46,706 nucleotides of DNA from Candidatus Gastranaerophilales bacterium (GTDB taxonomy: Bacteria; Cyanobacteriota; Vampirovibrionia; Gastranaerophilales; Gastranaerophilaceae), in the NCBI GenBank assembly GCA_947588785.1, contig CANPZN010000006.1, forward strand, positions 1 to 46,706, read 5' to 3'. Both the position numbers and the translations under genes were made by a program. Below are positions 2,715 to 9,610 of this stretch, piece after piece. Within the stretch, counting starts at the first letter, position 1. Every line of letters starts with the position of its first letter. The notes beneath the pieces were generated by a model that saw only the letters and a list, made by a program, of their open reading frames with translations, had not been told where the DNA came from and searched no databases.

Positions 2715-4043
2715 TTAAAAAATATGCTTTTTTCTATACAAAACAGCATTTTTATATGCTTGTGCATCTTCACATAATATATCTGATTTTTTTAAAAAAC
2801 CATCTTCTAAATAACAAGAATAAATTGGACAATACATACAATATTTACAATAGTCGTGTTTAAAACAATCTTTTAAATTTTCAGGTTTCAGTTTATTTTG
2901 AAATTCTTTTACTTTAGTTTCTTTAATTTCTTTTAATGATATATTTTTAAGATTTCCTAAAATGTAATAACAATAATTACAAGGATTAACATCTAAATTC
3001 GGCATAACAGCGATTCTGTCAATCCCTCCATAACAATTTAGACATCCATTTCTCAGATTATTCATGTCTAATGTTTCAATATAATACTTTTCAATTTCTT
3101 GTTTTGATAATTTTGCATTTAAATTGTTATTTTTTGGATTGTAATGAAATCTACAATCTGATAAAAATTCCATTTCCATTGATTCTGCAAAATTTTTAAC
3201 TTCAATAAATGATAAAGGATTATAGGATGTTTGAAAACATGATATAGTTGTATTAATTTTATTTAATTTTAGCTCTTTTATTACTGATAATGTTTTAAAA
3301 TGAGAACCTTTAACTCCGGTAATATTATCATGAATTTCAGGATTCATACTATATAAACTTAATTGTACTTTTGCCGGAAATATAGAAATTATATTTTTAA
3401 ATAAAAGTTTATCATCGTATAACTGTTGACCATTTGTTAATATATTTAATTCAAGAAATTTTTCTCTTACATATTTTGCAATTTGAAAAAAATCTTTATT
3501 AATTGTCGCTTCTCCACCTGTCAATGTCACTGAATATACACCCAAGTCATAAGCTTCATTTATAATTTTTTTTGCAGAATCTATATTTATTTCAAATTGA
3601 AACATATCTTTGTTATTACAACAATGTTTACAATTTAAATTACACCTGTAATTTAAATTTAACGCAACATCACAAAGATAATTATTATAAATTAATAAAT
3701 TCTTTTTTTTACTTTCAAAATAATGAAAATTTTTTGCATTTCTATTAATTTTGAAAGACATTAAATTAGAATTTATATTATCATATTTATTTTTTGTTGC
3801 TATAATATTATTTTTTTTTAATTCAAATAAAAAACCATTTAAAATATTTTCTAAATTATTTTTTTTTGCAAAACTTAAAATACTATCATAATAACGCAAT
3901 TCTATAATAGAATTCCATAATTTTGATATATCACCGTATATTACATAATCATTTTTATTATTAAGATCAGTAATAAAACTTACTGATGAATTATTATTTA
4001 ATTCATAGCACTTTGTACAAACATGCGGTTGTATATAAATCAT
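2715..4043 (-). CDS. Radical SAM/SPASM peptide maturase with N-terminal RRE-like region
   Basis: The 442-residue protein has a radical SAM core beginning with the cluster motif CNLNCKHC (C134, C138, C141), followed by SVTLTGGEATINKD, the GGE motif that binds the methionine amino group of SAM. The C-terminal region has at least ten cysteines (CLNCYGG, NPCNYC, DCFKHDYCKYCMYCPIYSCYLE, LCED), the signature of a SPASM domain with auxiliary 4Fe-4S clusters. Residues 25-85 (NDYVIYGDISKLWNS through FLFELKKNNII) have the helix pattern of a PqqD-type RiPP recognition element; this part is an inference. The ATG follows the stop codon of the 48-residue peptide gene with no bases between them, so translation is almost certainly coupled. 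Family knowledge: such enzymes install thioether or C-C links in ribosomal peptides. No transporter or protease gene is adjacent. Confidence 0.9.
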   Translation of the reverse strand: MIYIQPHVCTKCYELNNNSSVSFITDLNNKNDYVIYGDISKLWNSIIELRYYDSILSFAKKNNLENILNGFLFELKKNNIIATKNKYDNINSNLMSFKINRNAKNFHYFESKKKNLLIYNNYLCDVALNLNYRCNLNCKHCCNNKDMFQFEINIDSAKKIINEAYDLGVYSVTLTGGEATINKDFFQIAKYVREKFLELNILTNGQQLYDDKLLFKNIISIFPAKVQLSLYSMNPEIHDNITGVKGSHFKTLSVIKELKLNKINTTISCFQTSYNPLSFIEVKNFAESMEMEFLSDCRFHYNPKNNNLNAKLSKQEIEKYYIETLDMNNLRNGCLNCYGGIDRIAVMPNLDVNPCNYCYYILGNLKNISLKEIKETKVKEFQNKLKPENLKDCFKHDYCKYCMYCPIYSCYLEDGFLKKSDILCEDAQAYKNAVLYRKKHIF

Positions 4044-4190
4044 TTATTTTGCAGTACCACTATAAATACAATGTTGAGGACCGCTATAGCAAGCATCTGA
4101 AAGATTATCTGGTACTTCCAGTATGTCATCAAAGTATTTAAGAATTTCTTCATTTGATAAATTTTCTATATCATCATTGTTGTCAACCAT
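4044..4190 (-). CDS. 48-residue RiPP precursor peptide candidate
   Basis: This short gene sits exactly between the ATP-grasp and radical SAM genes. It has an ideal Shine-Dalgarno (AAAGGAGG, about 6 bases before ATG) that lies inside the last codons of the ATP-grasp gene, and its TAA abuts the maturase ATG. The peptide has an acidic, helical leader (MVDNNDDIENLSNEEILKYF, then DDILEVPDNLSD, 10 Asp/Glu in total before the core) and a neutral C-terminal segment ACYSGPQHCIYSGTAK. The tail has two cysteines (C34 and C41) and two YSG units (35-37, 43-45). The acidic leader, small Cys/Gly/Ser-rich core and coupling to a SPASM enzyme are typical of RiPP precursors. No known precursor family is recognised. 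Likely modification sites are the cysteines or the YSG residues. Confidence 0.8.
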   Translation of the reverse strand: MVDNNDDIENLSNEEILKYFDDILEVPDNLSDACYSGPQHCIYSGTAK

Positions 4191-4191
4191 A

Positions 4192-5203
4192 TTAACCTCC
4201 TTTTAAATTAAGCATATTTCCTAATGTACTTTGCCAATGTTTATATTCGTCAGGAAATGAAAAATATCCGGATAAAGGTGTAAATGTCATTTCTTCAAAA
4301 TACAAATGATTTTTATATAACATCCAATCAACTCTTACAAATTTAAAATTTTCTGCAAGTATTTTACTTAAATCAACTGCTTTTTTAAGATTTACATCAG
4401 GAATTGAATTTTCGATTATATCATCCTGCAAAAATTTTAAATCAATATTCCTAAAGTTTTCATCAAAAGTATTAACTATACGAGATTTTTTTATTTCTTT
4501 ACTTATTTGTTGTATTATTTTGGGTGTACCATTAAAACACCAAACTTCAAATTCTAGAGGGCTAACATTTATGTCTTCTCTATATAATTCTTCAATAATA
4601 ATTTTTGGATCTATATTTTTATATTGAGTTTCAAAATCACTCCAACCAAAAAAGGATTGTTCCATCCAACCATCCATAGTAATTTTACTAATTGTGAATA
4701 ATCTTGAATTTTCAATAAATTTTTGCTTATCTTTTACTATAAAATGCCACTTACAACCATGATTTGCTTTAATAATAAATGTGTTAGGTAGGCTATCAAA
4801 GGGTATTAGATCAAAATTTTTTCCAACCCACAATGTTGGTTTTATAAATTGTTCGCCAATTTTACTTTTTACCCAATCTTTCGCCAAAACTTTATCAGTT
4901 AATTGTGTTTTTAAAGGAATATTATCGTATAATTTTAACCATTGAATTTTTTCGCTAAAAGTTTTTGGTCTATTTAAATGTAAAACTTGTTCTGTTTTAA
5001 TAAAATATGCTTGTGAAAGATATTTTTTATATTTTTTTTCATTTAAAGACATTAAAAAATTATAATCAAAAACAGCTTGACCACTGTTTTGTAAGCGTTT
5101 TAATACAGAACTATTAAAATAAGAACTATTAGAACCAAGAATAAAATACTTTTTTATGTTATTTATAAAATCAAACTTCAAAATCCCCCCCCCCACATTT
5201 CAT
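4192..5203 (-). CDS. TupA-like ATP-grasp enzyme, start at a G10 tract
   Basis: The protein (334 residues if counted from a GTG at 5196) matches the TupA-like ATP-grasp family, with NRPKTFSEKIQWLKLYD, LTDKVLAKDWV, FIIKANHGCKWHF, EVWCFNGTPKIIQQ and VRVDWMLYKNHLYFEEMTF...SGYFSF, where the acidic residues bind Mg-ATP. TupA relatives act in surface teichuronopeptide/polysaccharide synthesis by forming amide bonds; in this operon it may instead act on the peptide. In-frame ATGs at 5203 and 5224 lie upstream of a run of ten G (minus strand). With ten G they lead to a stop after 10 codons; with nine or twelve they read into this protein. Starts usable in the present state are GTG 5196, or TTG 5181 with the G run as ribosome binding site. 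The coordinates given here begin at ATG 5203. Confidence 0.75.
5185..5194 (-). repeat. Homopolymeric G10 tract (C10 on plus strand)
   Basis: Ten consecutive C on the plus strand, in DNA that is otherwise extremely AT-rich, lie exactly at the 5' end of the ATP-grasp coding region. Tracts of 8-12 G are classic sites of slipped-strand mispairing and phase variation in AT-rich bacteria such as Campylobacter. Frames from ATG 5203: 9 or 12 G in frame, 10 and 11 G lead to TGA within about 10 codons. Confidence 0.9.
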
Positions 5204-5258
5204 ACAAACATAAACAAATTTCATATGAATAAGGGGTAAACCAGACTTATGATACAAT

Positions 5259-5286
5259 ATTATAATACATTAATTATATTTGTCAA
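5259..5286 (-). promoter_or_regulatory. Consensus sigma-70 promoter of the RiPP cassette
   Basis: On the minus strand TTGACA (plus bases 5281-5286) and TATAAT (5259-5264) match the -35 and -10 consensus exactly with a 16-base spacer. Transcription would begin near 5252, about 28-50 bases ahead of the candidate ATG codons of the ATP-grasp gene. Confidence 0.8.
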
Positions 5287-5375: not shown

Positions 5376-5451
5376 GGGCGGTTGGCGCAGATGGTAGCGT
5401 ATCACATTGACATTGTGGAGGTCGCAGGTTCAAGTCCTGTATCGCCCACCA
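5376..5451 (+). tRNA. tRNA-Val (anticodon GAC)
   Basis: The 76 bases fold into a full cloverleaf. The acceptor stem GGGCGGT pairs with ATCGCCC, the anticodon stem TCACA pairs with TGTGG around loop TTGACAT (anticodon GAC), and the T arm is GCAGG-TTCAAGT-CCTGT. The 3' CCA is encoded. No copy of its 3' end is seen elsewhere in the window, so there is no sign of an integrated element. Confidence 0.95.
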
Positions 5452-5758: not shown

Positions 5759-6415
5759 TTAAGAATTATAATCTTCTATATTACCTATTTTTAATGCGGG
5801 ATTCCCAGCCAGGTAACAATTATTTTTACAACCCTTATAAACTGCACTTAATGGTGCTATTTTGTTATTATTTCCTATTTTAGAGCGAGGCAATATAATT
5901 GTGTTAGCACCAATTTGATTATAATTTCCAATTTTTACTGCACCAAGAGCTTGGCTTCTTGGACCTAAAAAGTTAAAATCTCCTATTTCACAATCATGCC
6001 CTAAAATGACATCCCCATTAAAAACATTACAATTTCCAATTTTAATGTTGACTGATATTGAGCTTGAAAATATTATGTTTGCTTCTCCTAATTCTACTGA
6101 ATCTGTTATGTATGAATTATTACTAATTAAGTTATAAAACTTTACACCTTTTTCTTTGAGATCTTCATATATTTTTTTTCTAATATCAGGATATCCAGCT
6201 CCGATAATACAATATTCATTTTCTTTAAAAGTATGATCATTTACTTCACCTATATAGAAATTTTGCTTGTTTTTATAATCAACGGTATGACCATACCCGC
6301 CATGCCCCAGAAATCCTCCAAATTGTATATTTTTATCAGTTTTTATTATATTATTTAAAACATCATAACACTCTCTCGCATATCCATTACCGCCTACTAT
6401 GTATATTGTTTTCAT
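5759..6415 (-). CDS. NeuD/PglD-type sugar O/N-acyltransferase
   Basis: The 218-residue protein starts with a small Rossmann-like domain (MKTIYIVGGNGYARECYDVL, residues 1-75) that binds the amino-sugar nucleotide. It continues as a left-handed beta helix built from hexapeptide repeats (IGNCNVFNGDVILGHDCEIGD, LGAVKIGNYNQIGANTIILP, KIGNNNKIAPLSAVYKG). The histidine in GHDCEIGD aligns with the catalytic base of PglD/NeuD enzymes, which transfer an acetyl group from acetyl-CoA to a UDP- or dTDP-4-amino sugar. It is the last gene of a three-gene minus-strand operon; the DegT aminotransferase two genes upstream would supply the amino sugar. Ribosome binding site AAAGAAAGG. Length is normal for the family. 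Confidence 0.88.
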   Translation of the reverse strand: MKTIYIVGGNGYARECYDVLNNIIKTDKNIQFGGFLGHGGYGHTVDYKNKQNFYIGEVNDHTFKENEYCIIGAGYPDIRKKIYEDLKEKGVKFYNLISNNSYITDSVELGEANIIFSSSISVNIKIGNCNVFNGDVILGHDCEIGDFNFLGPRSQALGAVKIGNYNQIGANTIILPRSKIGNNNKIAPLSAVYKGCKNNCYLAGNPALKIGNIEDYNS

Positions 6416-6440
6416 AATATTACCTTTCTTTTTATAATGT

Positions 6441-7592
6441 TTATGCTCTATTAGTTATGGGAAAGAAATCATAATTTTTAGTATAAAATCTTTTCAAATT
6501 ATCTATCCACCAATCAAATTTATATAGTTTCTTATGTCGAGTTAATGTTTCGCTTATTATTTTATTATATTCCTCTTCATTTTCTATAAGTTTTCGCATA
6601 TCATTTGTTATATTGTTTATCAAATCTTCATATGAATTATAAACATTTTTCAATTCTTTCCAGGTTTTATCCGGGAAAAAATTATCATTGTATACTGCAA
6701 ATCCTATTGAATTAACAAATTGTGGTTGTATAAAATAACCATCCATACCTTCCCCAAATGTAATTGTAAAATAAGCTTTTGAAATCAAATCCATATATTG
6801 TGCAAATGTAAGATTTTGAACCGTTATTAGTTTAAAATCACTCATTTCTTGCTTTAATTTATTTATTACATTATCTTTATTTTCGTTGTAGTCCGGAGAA
6901 AGAACTATTATTTTTTCTTTTTGGTTAAAATTATATGCATCATAATTGCTTAAATCTATGTATACTGACAATAAGTGTGTTGGAATATTCCATTTATCAC
7001 ATACTTCTTGTGTTGCATATCTATTATGGGCTATTGTCATTGAAACATCATTAGTCAATAATTTTAATGATTCAATTTCTTTTGGCTTTGGCATTAATTC
7101 TATATTTTGGTTTAATATATTAATTCTTAGATTTTGTTTATTTTTCAATACTTTACGCTCTTTCGCTTTTAGCGTTTTATAAAATTTATTTGCAAAATAT
7201 TCAGGTATATGAATTATAACATTTTTAGCATTATCAATATTATTTATTATTTGTTCCCAATTATATACCTTTTCATCGTTTTTAAAATTAGGATTATAAG
7301 AATAAGTATATTTGCCCGGAATGGTTGAAATTACACATTCATATTTCGGATTTATTTCTCGTGAATATTTACATATTGAGTATATTGATTGAATTCCGCC
7401 ATTTACTACGCATTTATTTGGTACTAGAAATATTATTATATTTTTTGCCTCTTTAATCTTATCTAAATTATATTTCTTTTGAATTGATTTTTCTTTTTTG
7501 GTAAATTCATAATTTCTTAATGTTAATTTCGCACCAAAAAAATGATAGATTATAAAATTATCAGATTTTTCTATAGAAAATATTTTATTCAT
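6441..7592 (-). CDS. Glycosyltransferase-like protein (GT-B type, unassigned)
   Basis: The 383-residue soluble protein has a GT-B-like layout: an N-terminal half with IIIFLVPNKCVVNGGIQSIYSICKY, where the NGGIQSI loop resembles the nucleotide/acceptor loop of GT4-type enzymes, and a C-terminal half with EKIIVLSPDYNENKD, ITVQNLTFAQYMDLISKAYFTITFGEGMDGYFIQPQF. In the second half, FGEGMDGYF could be the sugar-nucleotide binding loop. No named family can be assigned with certainty. Its ATG overlaps the stop of the upstream aminotransferase gene (TAATG), so it belongs to the same operon and probably transfers the amino sugar made there onto a surface glycan. No signal peptide or membrane segment is seen, so it acts in the cytoplasm. 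Confidence 0.6.
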   Translation of the reverse strand: MNKIFSIEKSDNFIIYHFFGAKLTLRNYEFTKKEKSIQKKYNLDKIKEAKNIIIFLVPNKCVVNGGIQSIYSICKYSREINPKYECVISTIPGKYTYSYNPNFKNDEKVYNWEQIINNIDNAKNVIIHIPEYFANKFYKTLKAKERKVLKNKQNLRINILNQNIELMPKPKEIESLKLLTNDVSMTIAHNRYATQEVCDKWNIPTHLLSVYIDLSNYDAYNFNQKEKIIVLSPDYNENKDNVINKLKQEMSDFKLITVQNLTFAQYMDLISKAYFTITFGEGMDGYFIQPQFVNSIGFAVYNDNFFPDKTWKELKNVYNSYEDLINNITNDMRKLIENEEEYNKIISETLTRHKKLYKFDWWIDNLKRFYTKNYDFFPITNRA

Positions 7593-8680
7593 TAAATAAT
7601 ATTCCTTTTGATTATATTGCTTATTTTTTCAACAATATTAATATTTAAGTCCGGATATAAAGGCAAGCAAGCGATTCTAAGTGATATATCTTCCGAAATG
7701 TTACAATTAATTTTATCTGTCAAATATGGTAATGTATTAAGACTCGGATAAAAATATCTTCTCGGAAAAATTTGCTCTTCATTGAGAGCTTTAAATACTT
7801 TTAAAAGTTCTTTTTCATTTTTAAAAACAACAGGATAATACGCATAATTATACTCGACATTTGATTGTTGTTTTGGTCGTTGAATACAATCTTTTAGAAG
7901 AGTATCATATATATCACAAATTATTTTTCTTTTATTTATAATTTCTTTTATGTATGGTAGATTTGACAAGCCCATTGCCGCATGAAATTCTGATTGTTTT
8001 GCATTTATTCCCAAGGTATAGTGATTATCTCCTTGATGTCCAAATCTTTTAATTAATTCCAGTCTTTCTGAGATTTTATCATCTTTAACAATACAAGCTC
8101 CACCTTCTACTGTATGAAATAATTTTGTAGAATGAAAAGAACATGTAGAAATGTCACCATATGACAGTAAAGATTTATTTTTATATTTTGAAGCAAATGC
8201 ATGAGCCGCATCATAAATAACTTTCAAATTATATTTTTTCGCAATCTCTTGAATTTTTTCTATATTACAAGCATATCCGAATACATGAACAGGCATTATT
8301 GCTTTTGTATTTTCAGAAATTACAGATTCTATTTTTTCTGGATCAATTGTAAAATTGTCAGGTTCAATATCAACAAACACCGGTTTACAATGTTCCCATA
8401 AAATTGAAGATGTAGTTGCTACATATGAAAAAGGTGTTGTAATTATTTCTCCCGATTCAATACCAAGGGCTTTTAAGGCTATTTGTATTGCAATAGTACC
8501 ATTTGTAACATAATGAAAGTTTTTTACATTTAAGAAATTTGTTAGTTTTTCTTCTAATTCTTTTAACAATGGTCCCTGATTTGTTAATTGACAATTATTA
8601 AAAATTTTATTTAAATAAGAAAAATATTCATCTTTAGGTGGTAAAAATGATTTTGTTACAAATATATTCTCTCCAAACAT
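7592..8680 (-). CDS. DegT/DnrJ/EryC1/StrS sugar aminotransferase
   Basis: The 362-residue protein is a PLP-dependent sugar aminotransferase. YVTNGTIAIQIALKALGI binds the cofactor phosphate, VIYDAAHAFASKYKN supplies the Asp that holds the pyridine nitrogen (D157), and SFHSTKLFHTVEGGA carries the Schiff-base lysine K186. The sequence pattern (TNQGPLLKELEEKL, SFHxTKxFHTVEGGA) is closest to VioA/FdtB-like enzymes that aminate dTDP-4-keto-6-deoxyhexose, but the exact sugar cannot be fixed from sequence alone. It is the first gene of the operon with the glycosyltransferase and NeuD-like acetyltransferase, and it is transcribed divergently from acpS across a palindromic promoter region. Length is typical. 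Confidence 0.9.
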   Translation of the reverse strand: MFGENIFVTKSFLPPKDEYFSYLNKIFNNCQLTNQGPLLKELEEKLTNFLNVKNFHYVTNGTIAIQIALKALGIESGEIITTPFSYVATTSSILWEHCKPVFVDIEPDNFTIDPEKIESVISENTKAIMPVHVFGYACNIEKIQEIAKKYNLKVIYDAAHAFASKYKNKSLLSYGDISTCSFHSTKLFHTVEGGACIVKDDKISERLELIKRFGHQGDNHYTLGINAKQSEFHAAMGLSNLPYIKEIINKRKIICDIYDTLLKDCIQRPKQQSNVEYNYAYYPVVFKNEKELLKVFKALNEEQIFPRRYFYPSLNTLPYLTDKINCNISEDISLRIACLPLYPDLNINIVEKISNIIKRNII

Positions 8681-9218: not shown

Positions 9219-9610
9219 TGGAGACGGAGAGATTCGAACTCTCGTCCGGAATGGGATATAAACCTGCATCTACATGTGTAGGTCTGTTGTTTTAGACAAT
9301 ATTATGGCACGAACCACTCCTATTACATTGTCATAGCAGTTTTAACTGATACGCAGTTTGGAAGTTTAACTTAGTTCTGCTACTTCCGTTACAGAATTGC
9401 AACTTGCATACTGACGCTATATTAAACGGCAAGCTGGTCTAATACAACGGCTGAACTGCAACTAGGCAGCAAGAGCTTTAGCTCTTGAAAAATCAGCTTT
9501 TACTACATTATTTGTAGCGTTTATTTTAGTTTGCTCGTTGATAATCGAGAACAGCTCTCGAACACGCAGCCTGTTCACACCAATCCACCCGTCAAATCCA
9601 AAACGTCCCC
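9219..9610 (-). ncRNA. ssrA: tmRNA (ssrA), tag peptide ATNNVVKADFSRAKALAA
   Basis: On the minus strand the RNA starts GGGGACG at 9610 and ends CGTCTCCA at 9219. These ends pair into a tRNA-like acceptor stem that keeps the G3-U pair recognised by alanyl-tRNA synthetase; the T arm (GAGAGTTCGAATCTCTC) is at the 3' end. CCA is not encoded (TTA follows), so it must be added enzymatically. The resume codon is GCT at 9518-9516 and the tag reading frame ends with TAG at 9464-9462, giving an 18-residue degradation tag that ends in ALAA. The NNVVK segment resembles cyanobacterial tags such as ANNIVxF. The RNA is one piece of about 392 bases. It rescues stalled ribosomes with SmpB. Confidence 0.95.

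Follow-up and report, generated by a model that had tools for sequence, protein, structure and literature searches.

The window, by which we mean the whole 46,706-nucleotide stretch of Candidatus Gastranaerophilales DNA that was analysed, contains on its reverse strand, at 2715–5224, three tightly packed genes: a TupA-like ATP-grasp ligase, a 48-residue peptide and a radical SAM/SPASM maturase (Table 1). We judge it very likely that they form a genuine RiPP-type cassette. The close packing described in the initial annotation is borne out, with the peptide's own Shine-Dalgarno falling within the 3' end of the ligase gene and the peptide stop codon (4046–4044) directly abutting the maturase ATG at 4043. 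The ligase frame had been taken to begin at ATG 5224, but from there it is not open; ten G residues (5194–5185) shift the frame, and the only in-frame start is the GTG at 5196. The promoter-like site upstream of the cassette is the top promoter match in the region, where the total number of matches is about the mean for shuffled sequence.

Table 1. Positions of the cassette features in the window.
Feature	Position	Strand	Remarks
Sigma-70 promoter-like site	5259..5286	-	TTGACA-16-TATAAT, 12/12 consensus bases, upstream of cassette
TupA-like ATP-grasp ligase (PF14305)	4192..5196	-	Frame open from GTG 5196; stop TAA 4194-4192
Poly-G tract G10, putative phase-variation switch	5185..5194	-	Inside ATP-grasp ligase gene
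Shine-Dalgarno AGGAGG of peptide gene	4196..4201	-	Within 3' end of ligase gene
48-aa precursor peptide MVDNNDDIENLSNEEILKYFDDILEVPDNLSDACYSGPQHCIYSGTAK	4044..4190	-	Leader about residues 1-29, core about 30-48
Radical SAM/SPASM maturase, 442 aa	2715..4043	-	ORF, Pfam, conserved Cys, predicted fold
Predicted RRE (PqqD-like) domain of maturase, residues 8-77	3813..4022	-	Three strands then three helices (model)
Radical SAM cluster motif CxxxCxxC (C134, C138, C141)	3621..3644	-	Invariant in homologues
SPASM-type auxiliary cluster region, seven Cys (C337-C424)	2772..3035	-	Pfam, conservation

Polysaccharide genes adjoin the window cassette and are absent at most other cassette sites. Upstream, at 5759–8680, are a NeuD-like acetyltransferase, a possible glycosyltransferase and an aminotransferase-like ORF. 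Also beside the cassette, at 116–1051, is a DUF1848 protein (7.8e-92) with a Cys-rich C-terminal stretch that is weakly radical SAM-like. A tRNA-Val (gac) gene lies just upstream at 5376–5451 and a tmRNA gene at 9219–9610. Insertion at tRNA genes was considered and rejected, since a scan of 30 other loci showed a tRNA in just 2. No exporter, leader protease, immunity gene or glycan transferase recurs beside the cassettes in the loci compared.

The maturase matches Pfam Radical_SAM (7.8e-16) and falls just below the cut-off for SPASM (3e-4; 21.4 bits against 21.5). It has the CxxxCxxC motif and SPASM-type Cys array of a radical SAM/SPASM peptide maturase, and these, like the GGE motif at residues 176–178, had been read correctly from the single sequence. 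Across 40 homologues, the cysteines of CxxxCxxC and seven in the C-terminal part of the protein (337, 355, 393, 399, 402, 405 and 424) either never vary or show at least 90% conservation. An AlphaFold model built from 27 sequences has a pLDDT of 91.7, and its best matches in the PDB, spanning most of its length, are SuiB, CteB and SkfB. Could the enzyme belong to the anaerobic sulfatase maturases, as the initial annotation had allowed? The sulfatase maturase anSMEcpe does match the fold, ranked below SuiB and CteB, the NCBIfam scores are low, and no sulfatase was seen among the genes beside the cassette; this identity is not favoured, the nearest folds being those of RRE-bearing RiPP maturases. 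All NCBIfam equivalogs score far under their cut-offs, the top two being heme b synthase and GeoRSP. The named SPASM families AlbA, GeoRSP, PqqE, SkfB and StsB were rejected, the best score being 88 bits against a cut-off of 500.

An N-terminal region shaped like a PqqD/RRE domain had also been proposed for the maturase. The modelled fold of residues 8–77, together with its PDB matches and PqqD matches in family members, supports an RRE there, and it is mainly the fold that argues for it. Pfam PqqD matches 6 of 23 N-termini in the family (best 3.3e-5), the window maturase not among them, and a single-sequence HHalign comparison with one PqqD protein was weak, at 9.8% probability. In several family maturases the N-terminus is shortened and the full RRE is absent.

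The ligase scores 101 bits against Pfam ATPgrasp_TupA (8.3e-29; gathering cut-off 25) and many Lys, Glu, Asp and Asn columns are invariant in its alignment, so that both score and conserved residues place it in the TupA-like ATP-grasp family (PF14305). Its structure model is poor (pLDDT 57), with PDB matches that include PsnB, MdnC and D-Ala-D-Ala ligases equally well, and it was set aside as evidence. The C-terminal TupA-like domain of Cj1438 makes amides at glucuronic acid in the Campylobacter capsule (PMC11800379).

Among the precursor family models of Pfam and NCBIfam, the window peptide and 23 relatives match none beyond weak single matches. Short ORFs stand upstream of the maturases, with strong Shine-Dalgarno sequences and a common leader, LSxxEINELFxDIIExPDD, conserved at the equivalent place across the genus and above chance; the window peptide scores 1.9e-15 against the leader profile. 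The small frame is thus conserved beside the maturase in relatives, which upholds the RiPP reading. Across genomes the precursor gene adjoins a maturation enzyme, the conserved leader is separate from the core, and the enzyme has a predicted leader recognition domain, as judged from its fold and the PqqD matches and with the weak HHalign comparison noted above.

The two parts of the precursor differ greatly. The leaders are acidic and have a mean identity of 46%, against 14% for the cores (13% when shuffled), and Cys is present in 26 of 28 cores as against 1 of 28 leaders. Compared as DNA, six cassettes from two species show 88% identity in the leader and 44% in the core (41% when shuffled), a comparison in which the core end was wrongly framed in two of the six, with an effect that should be small. 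Across 14 loci the leader distances track those of the maturase (Mantel r 0.48, p 0.001) and of the ligase (0.60, p 0.0005), and core distances do not clearly track the maturase (0.16, p 0.07); such signals could reflect common inheritance alone. A diversity-generating retroelement is not favoured as the source of core variation, as the cores vary in length and are without homology.

Pieces of the precursor are in tandem copies at L041, L051 and L060. At the last of these (L060:5463–5783), two tandem precursors have C runs of about 8–10 where leader and core meet, and the frame of the core is set by run length. The L040 precursor is a decayed copy with a stop codon within the leader. More distant maturases (L064–L078, 31–38% identity) accompany other short precursors, MKKLYIKKRVK...ACC and MLKISRIAKHT...GC; TupA is on either the upstream or the downstream side, or is replaced by three other genes.

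How widely is the cassette distributed? Among 98 relatives searched there are about 45 clear maturase homologues, all in the genus and up to several per genome; elsewhere only generic radical SAM proteins were matched. When 383 genomes of the order were searched with a maturase profile, 17 members of the genus and two further genera of the family had matches at 1e-50. The records of the relatives are named Candidatus Gastranaerophilales, and some are 'Lapin' isolates. The genome of the window itself has two paralogues of the maturase. A decayed copy in this genome is a 5'-truncated maturase without a ligase (L007:3329–4105). In most loci a TupA ligase adjoins the maturase but the remaining neighbours vary, and therefore the cassette stands at many sites; the 25 ligase-precursor-maturase loci are at many unrelated ones. 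One conserved chromosomal site carries the cassette in several species, with different cores.

Of 41 genus genomes, 28 contain matches to the leader profile (E up to 0.1). Genome G021 has 42 of these matches and G008 has 34, and their TupA genes number at least 50 and at least 52, respectively. The amplified ligase-precursor pairs in these two genomes (L171–L185) are dispersed, have long Cys-rich cores and are without a SPASM maturase. In about 90 fetched loci a leader ORF follows 62 of the 76 TupA genes that have downstream room, at a median of 17 nt, a count that is biased because many of the loci were fetched for their leader matches. An unselected count in four genomes (G000, G029, G033 and G034) places the leader beside about 16 of 27 listed TupA genes. 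After the 62 leader ORFs come a SPASM maturase (25), a second type of radical SAM enzyme (5), a U32-like protein (5) or none of these within 900 nt (27). Several of the HMMs were built partly from the same loci that were later scored. On sequence evidence it is the ligase-precursor pair, not the SPASM enzyme, that is the constant unit. This constancy, like the hypervariability of the cores, is invisible from one locus and was seen by comparing loci.

The second type of radical SAM enzyme is present in 21 genus genomes at only 1–3 copies per genome, and therefore may act in trans on ligase-precursor pairs that have no maturase nearby. TupA and a precursor are found with a different radical SAM enzyme at L186:3859–7148, L187, L190, L192, L203, L205 and L206, some with a U32-peptidase-like protein. 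A prophage (L188:3519–6600) carries two TupA ligases and four leader-bearing precursors, adjoining terminase and head-tail connector genes. In another locus (L189:1413–5749) three precursors, with C9 tracts at their starts, lie between two PurD-like ATP-grasp proteins. That the pair occurs in viruses at large was rejected: the leader is present in 0 of 41 viral TupA relatives and a search with the prophage copy matched nothing. The sole leader match outside the genus among 191 family genomes is inside a 948-aa frame and is likely spurious.

Apart from the G10 tract, no G/C run in the window reaches 7, and 1.6e-4 runs of at least 10 are expected there. The true start of the ligase is likely ATG 5224 or 5203, with reading through the tract; the ligase ATG has no Shine-Dalgarno. 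From either start the ligase is out of frame and reading ends shortly past the tract, and one G fewer or two more would bring it into frame. Tracts of G6–G11 are found near the start of 16 ligase genes among 36 sequences, some of which are cut by contig ends, and 15 of the tracts have at least eight G. Five of the 16 genes are ON (in frame) and eleven are OFF, where the states rest on start codons chosen by rule (L057 and L059 have another ATG after the tract) and, all genomes being draft, individual homopolymer lengths and hence states may be wrong. One genome has two tandem cassettes, with G9 ON and G10 OFF (L047). The tract is absent in about six SPASM-cassette ligases that have their full upstream region.

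The start ATG sits 53 nt before the tract in seven of the tract-bearing genes. In 9 of 15, a TATAAT-like box precedes that ATG by 6 nt (mean mismatches 1.27 against 1.70 for shuffled sequence), the window not being among the nine, a putative pattern as for leaderless messages. As in poly-G contingency loci, the tracts lie in the coding region and related loci are in ON and OFF frames. Since five are ON and eleven OFF, the ligase tracts look like slipped-strand phase variation. The genome of the window, with 26.7% G+C, has 209 overlapping GGGGGGGG matches against about 0.4 expected runs of 8 or more. Poly-G is common in most genera of the Gastranaerophilaceae and absent in some species, and this abundance suggests phase variation throughout the family. 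One such tract is within a GDSL-like gene. Overall, the RiPP and RRE parts of the initial annotation are supported, and the putative frame switch in poly-G had been missed.

The best explanation, to which we give a probability of about 0.5, is a RiPP-type cassette with a hypervariable product and a ligase that is probably phase-variable. The RRE at the maturase N-terminus would very likely, from its modelled fold, bind the leader. The SPASM enzyme would then modify the Cys-bearing core by radical chemistry, through a cross-link or in some other way, and we lean towards a Cys thioether. The TupA-like ligase would use ATP to form an amide bond between the peptide and a carboxylate. About 18 codons from the ligase start, slippage of the G tract would turn the ligase on or off, with the window sequence OFF from the ATG starts. 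Free replacement of the core with retention of the leader would be expected if diversifying selection acts on a molecule that is antagonistic or exposed at the surface.

The product would most likely be a cross-linked peptide in amide linkage with a carboxylate, which may be that of a uronic acid at the surface. That the peptide is joined in this way to an acidic sugar of a surface glycan, the most likely carboxylate, has close to even odds, if a little below; we infer it from the amide chemistry of Cj1438 (PMC11800379), the hypervariability, the G tract and the polysaccharide genes beside the window cassette. A broader proposal is more doubtful. Across the genus, TupA-like ligases may link hypervariable Cys-rich ribosomal peptides to glycan under poly-G phase control, giving a variable surface coat with a large repertoire and a prophage version.

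Does the ligase need a glycan at all? The peptide might be its only substrate, which it would cyclise as a macrocyclase or tag, with graspetide-like cross-links or a terminal amino acid. No glycan gene belongs to the cassette itself, an acid residue and Lys are both present in most cores, and the ATP-grasp model matches the graspetide ligases PsnB and MdnC. That match does not discriminate, however, given the poor model and the equal match of D-Ala-D-Ala ligases. Asp and Glu make up only 4.8% of the SPASM-cassette cores and are missing altogether from 6 of 26, which speaks mildly against side-chain carboxylate links, and the grasp-with-spasm ligase model TIGR04192 matches nowhere in the genome. 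We regard an action on the peptide alone as unlikely, if a serious contender. Secreted bacteriocin-like antagonistic peptides, diversified by an arms race and with phase variation limiting their cost, are quite unlikely. Cys-bearing hypervariable cores and RRE/SPASM maturases are indeed typical of sactipeptide and ranthipeptide bacteriocins, but the exporter, protease and immunity gene do not recur beside the cassettes, the constant partner is a ligase rather than a transporter, and at least 50 ligase copies per genome would be unusual.

The remaining alternatives concern the tract and the small frame. The G tracts could be ordinary repeats or assembly errors with no switching role, as the genomes are all draft and poly-G is widespread in the family; against this, poly-G matches in the genome of the window are far above expectation, the position of the tract in the ligase gene is near constant and both reading states are found, and we think this reading improbable. 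That the small frame is a regulatory or chance ORF, with the maturase having another target, is very improbable. The precursor has no family match, which favours it weakly, yet the leader profile recurs through most of the genus genomes and in none of the viral TupA relatives, and the Cys content of the cores is kept in kind while their sequence is not.

The open-access literature searched holds no matching description of such a ligase-peptide-maturase system. The suggestion that this is an undescribed RiPP class is accordingly supported within the reach of NCBIfam, that literature and the grasp-with-spasm families tested. As a candidate RiPP class the cassette has an unusual ligase partner, and it comes from an uncultured lineage of the gut in which the same literature yielded no RiPP. 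In it, leader-directed maturation of a peptide meets hypervariable cores and putative homopolymer phase variation, three themes that are seldom combined. The pattern suggests a variable coat or signal. If the product does sit on a glycan, ribosomal peptide modification would extend to surface variation, with likely relevance to the evasion of phages and of immunity in the gut. Which core sequences one leader-guided pathway tolerates can also be read from the natural diversity of the cores.

Among known systems, SuiB (streptide), CteB (ranthipeptide/sactipeptide), SkfB and AlbA have the same RRE-radical SAM-SPASM order, an adjacent precursor gene and a nearly full-length match in fold. The cassette differs from them in sequence (about 15–18% identity), in its unrelated leader and in its TupA-like ligase partner, hypervariable core and poly-G switch in the ligase. 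Among NCBIfam models, GeoRSP-type radical SAM/SPASM proteins rank second for the maturase, at 72 bits where the cut-off is 400, and one of the nearest outside relatives (L097) adjoins a PqqD gene, but GeoRSP systems have neither a TupA ligase nor the leader of this cassette. The grasp-with-spasm systems likewise combine an ATP-grasp protein, a SPASM enzyme and a small peptide, whereas the ATP-grasp protein here is of the TupA family; that identity was rejected, TIGR04192 and TIGR04193 matching nothing in this genome. TupA, of teichuronopeptide synthesis, and the C-terminal domain of Cj1438 are the same kind of ligase. They work within clusters of glycan genes for which no ribosomal peptide is known, whereas here a leader-bearing peptide gene comes next. 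The poly-G/C contingency loci of Campylobacter, Helicobacter and Neisseria have a homopolymer near the 5' end of the gene and ON and OFF frames. In the cassette described here the putatively switched gene is instead that of a RiPP-type ligase, in a non-photosynthetic relative of the cyanobacteria.
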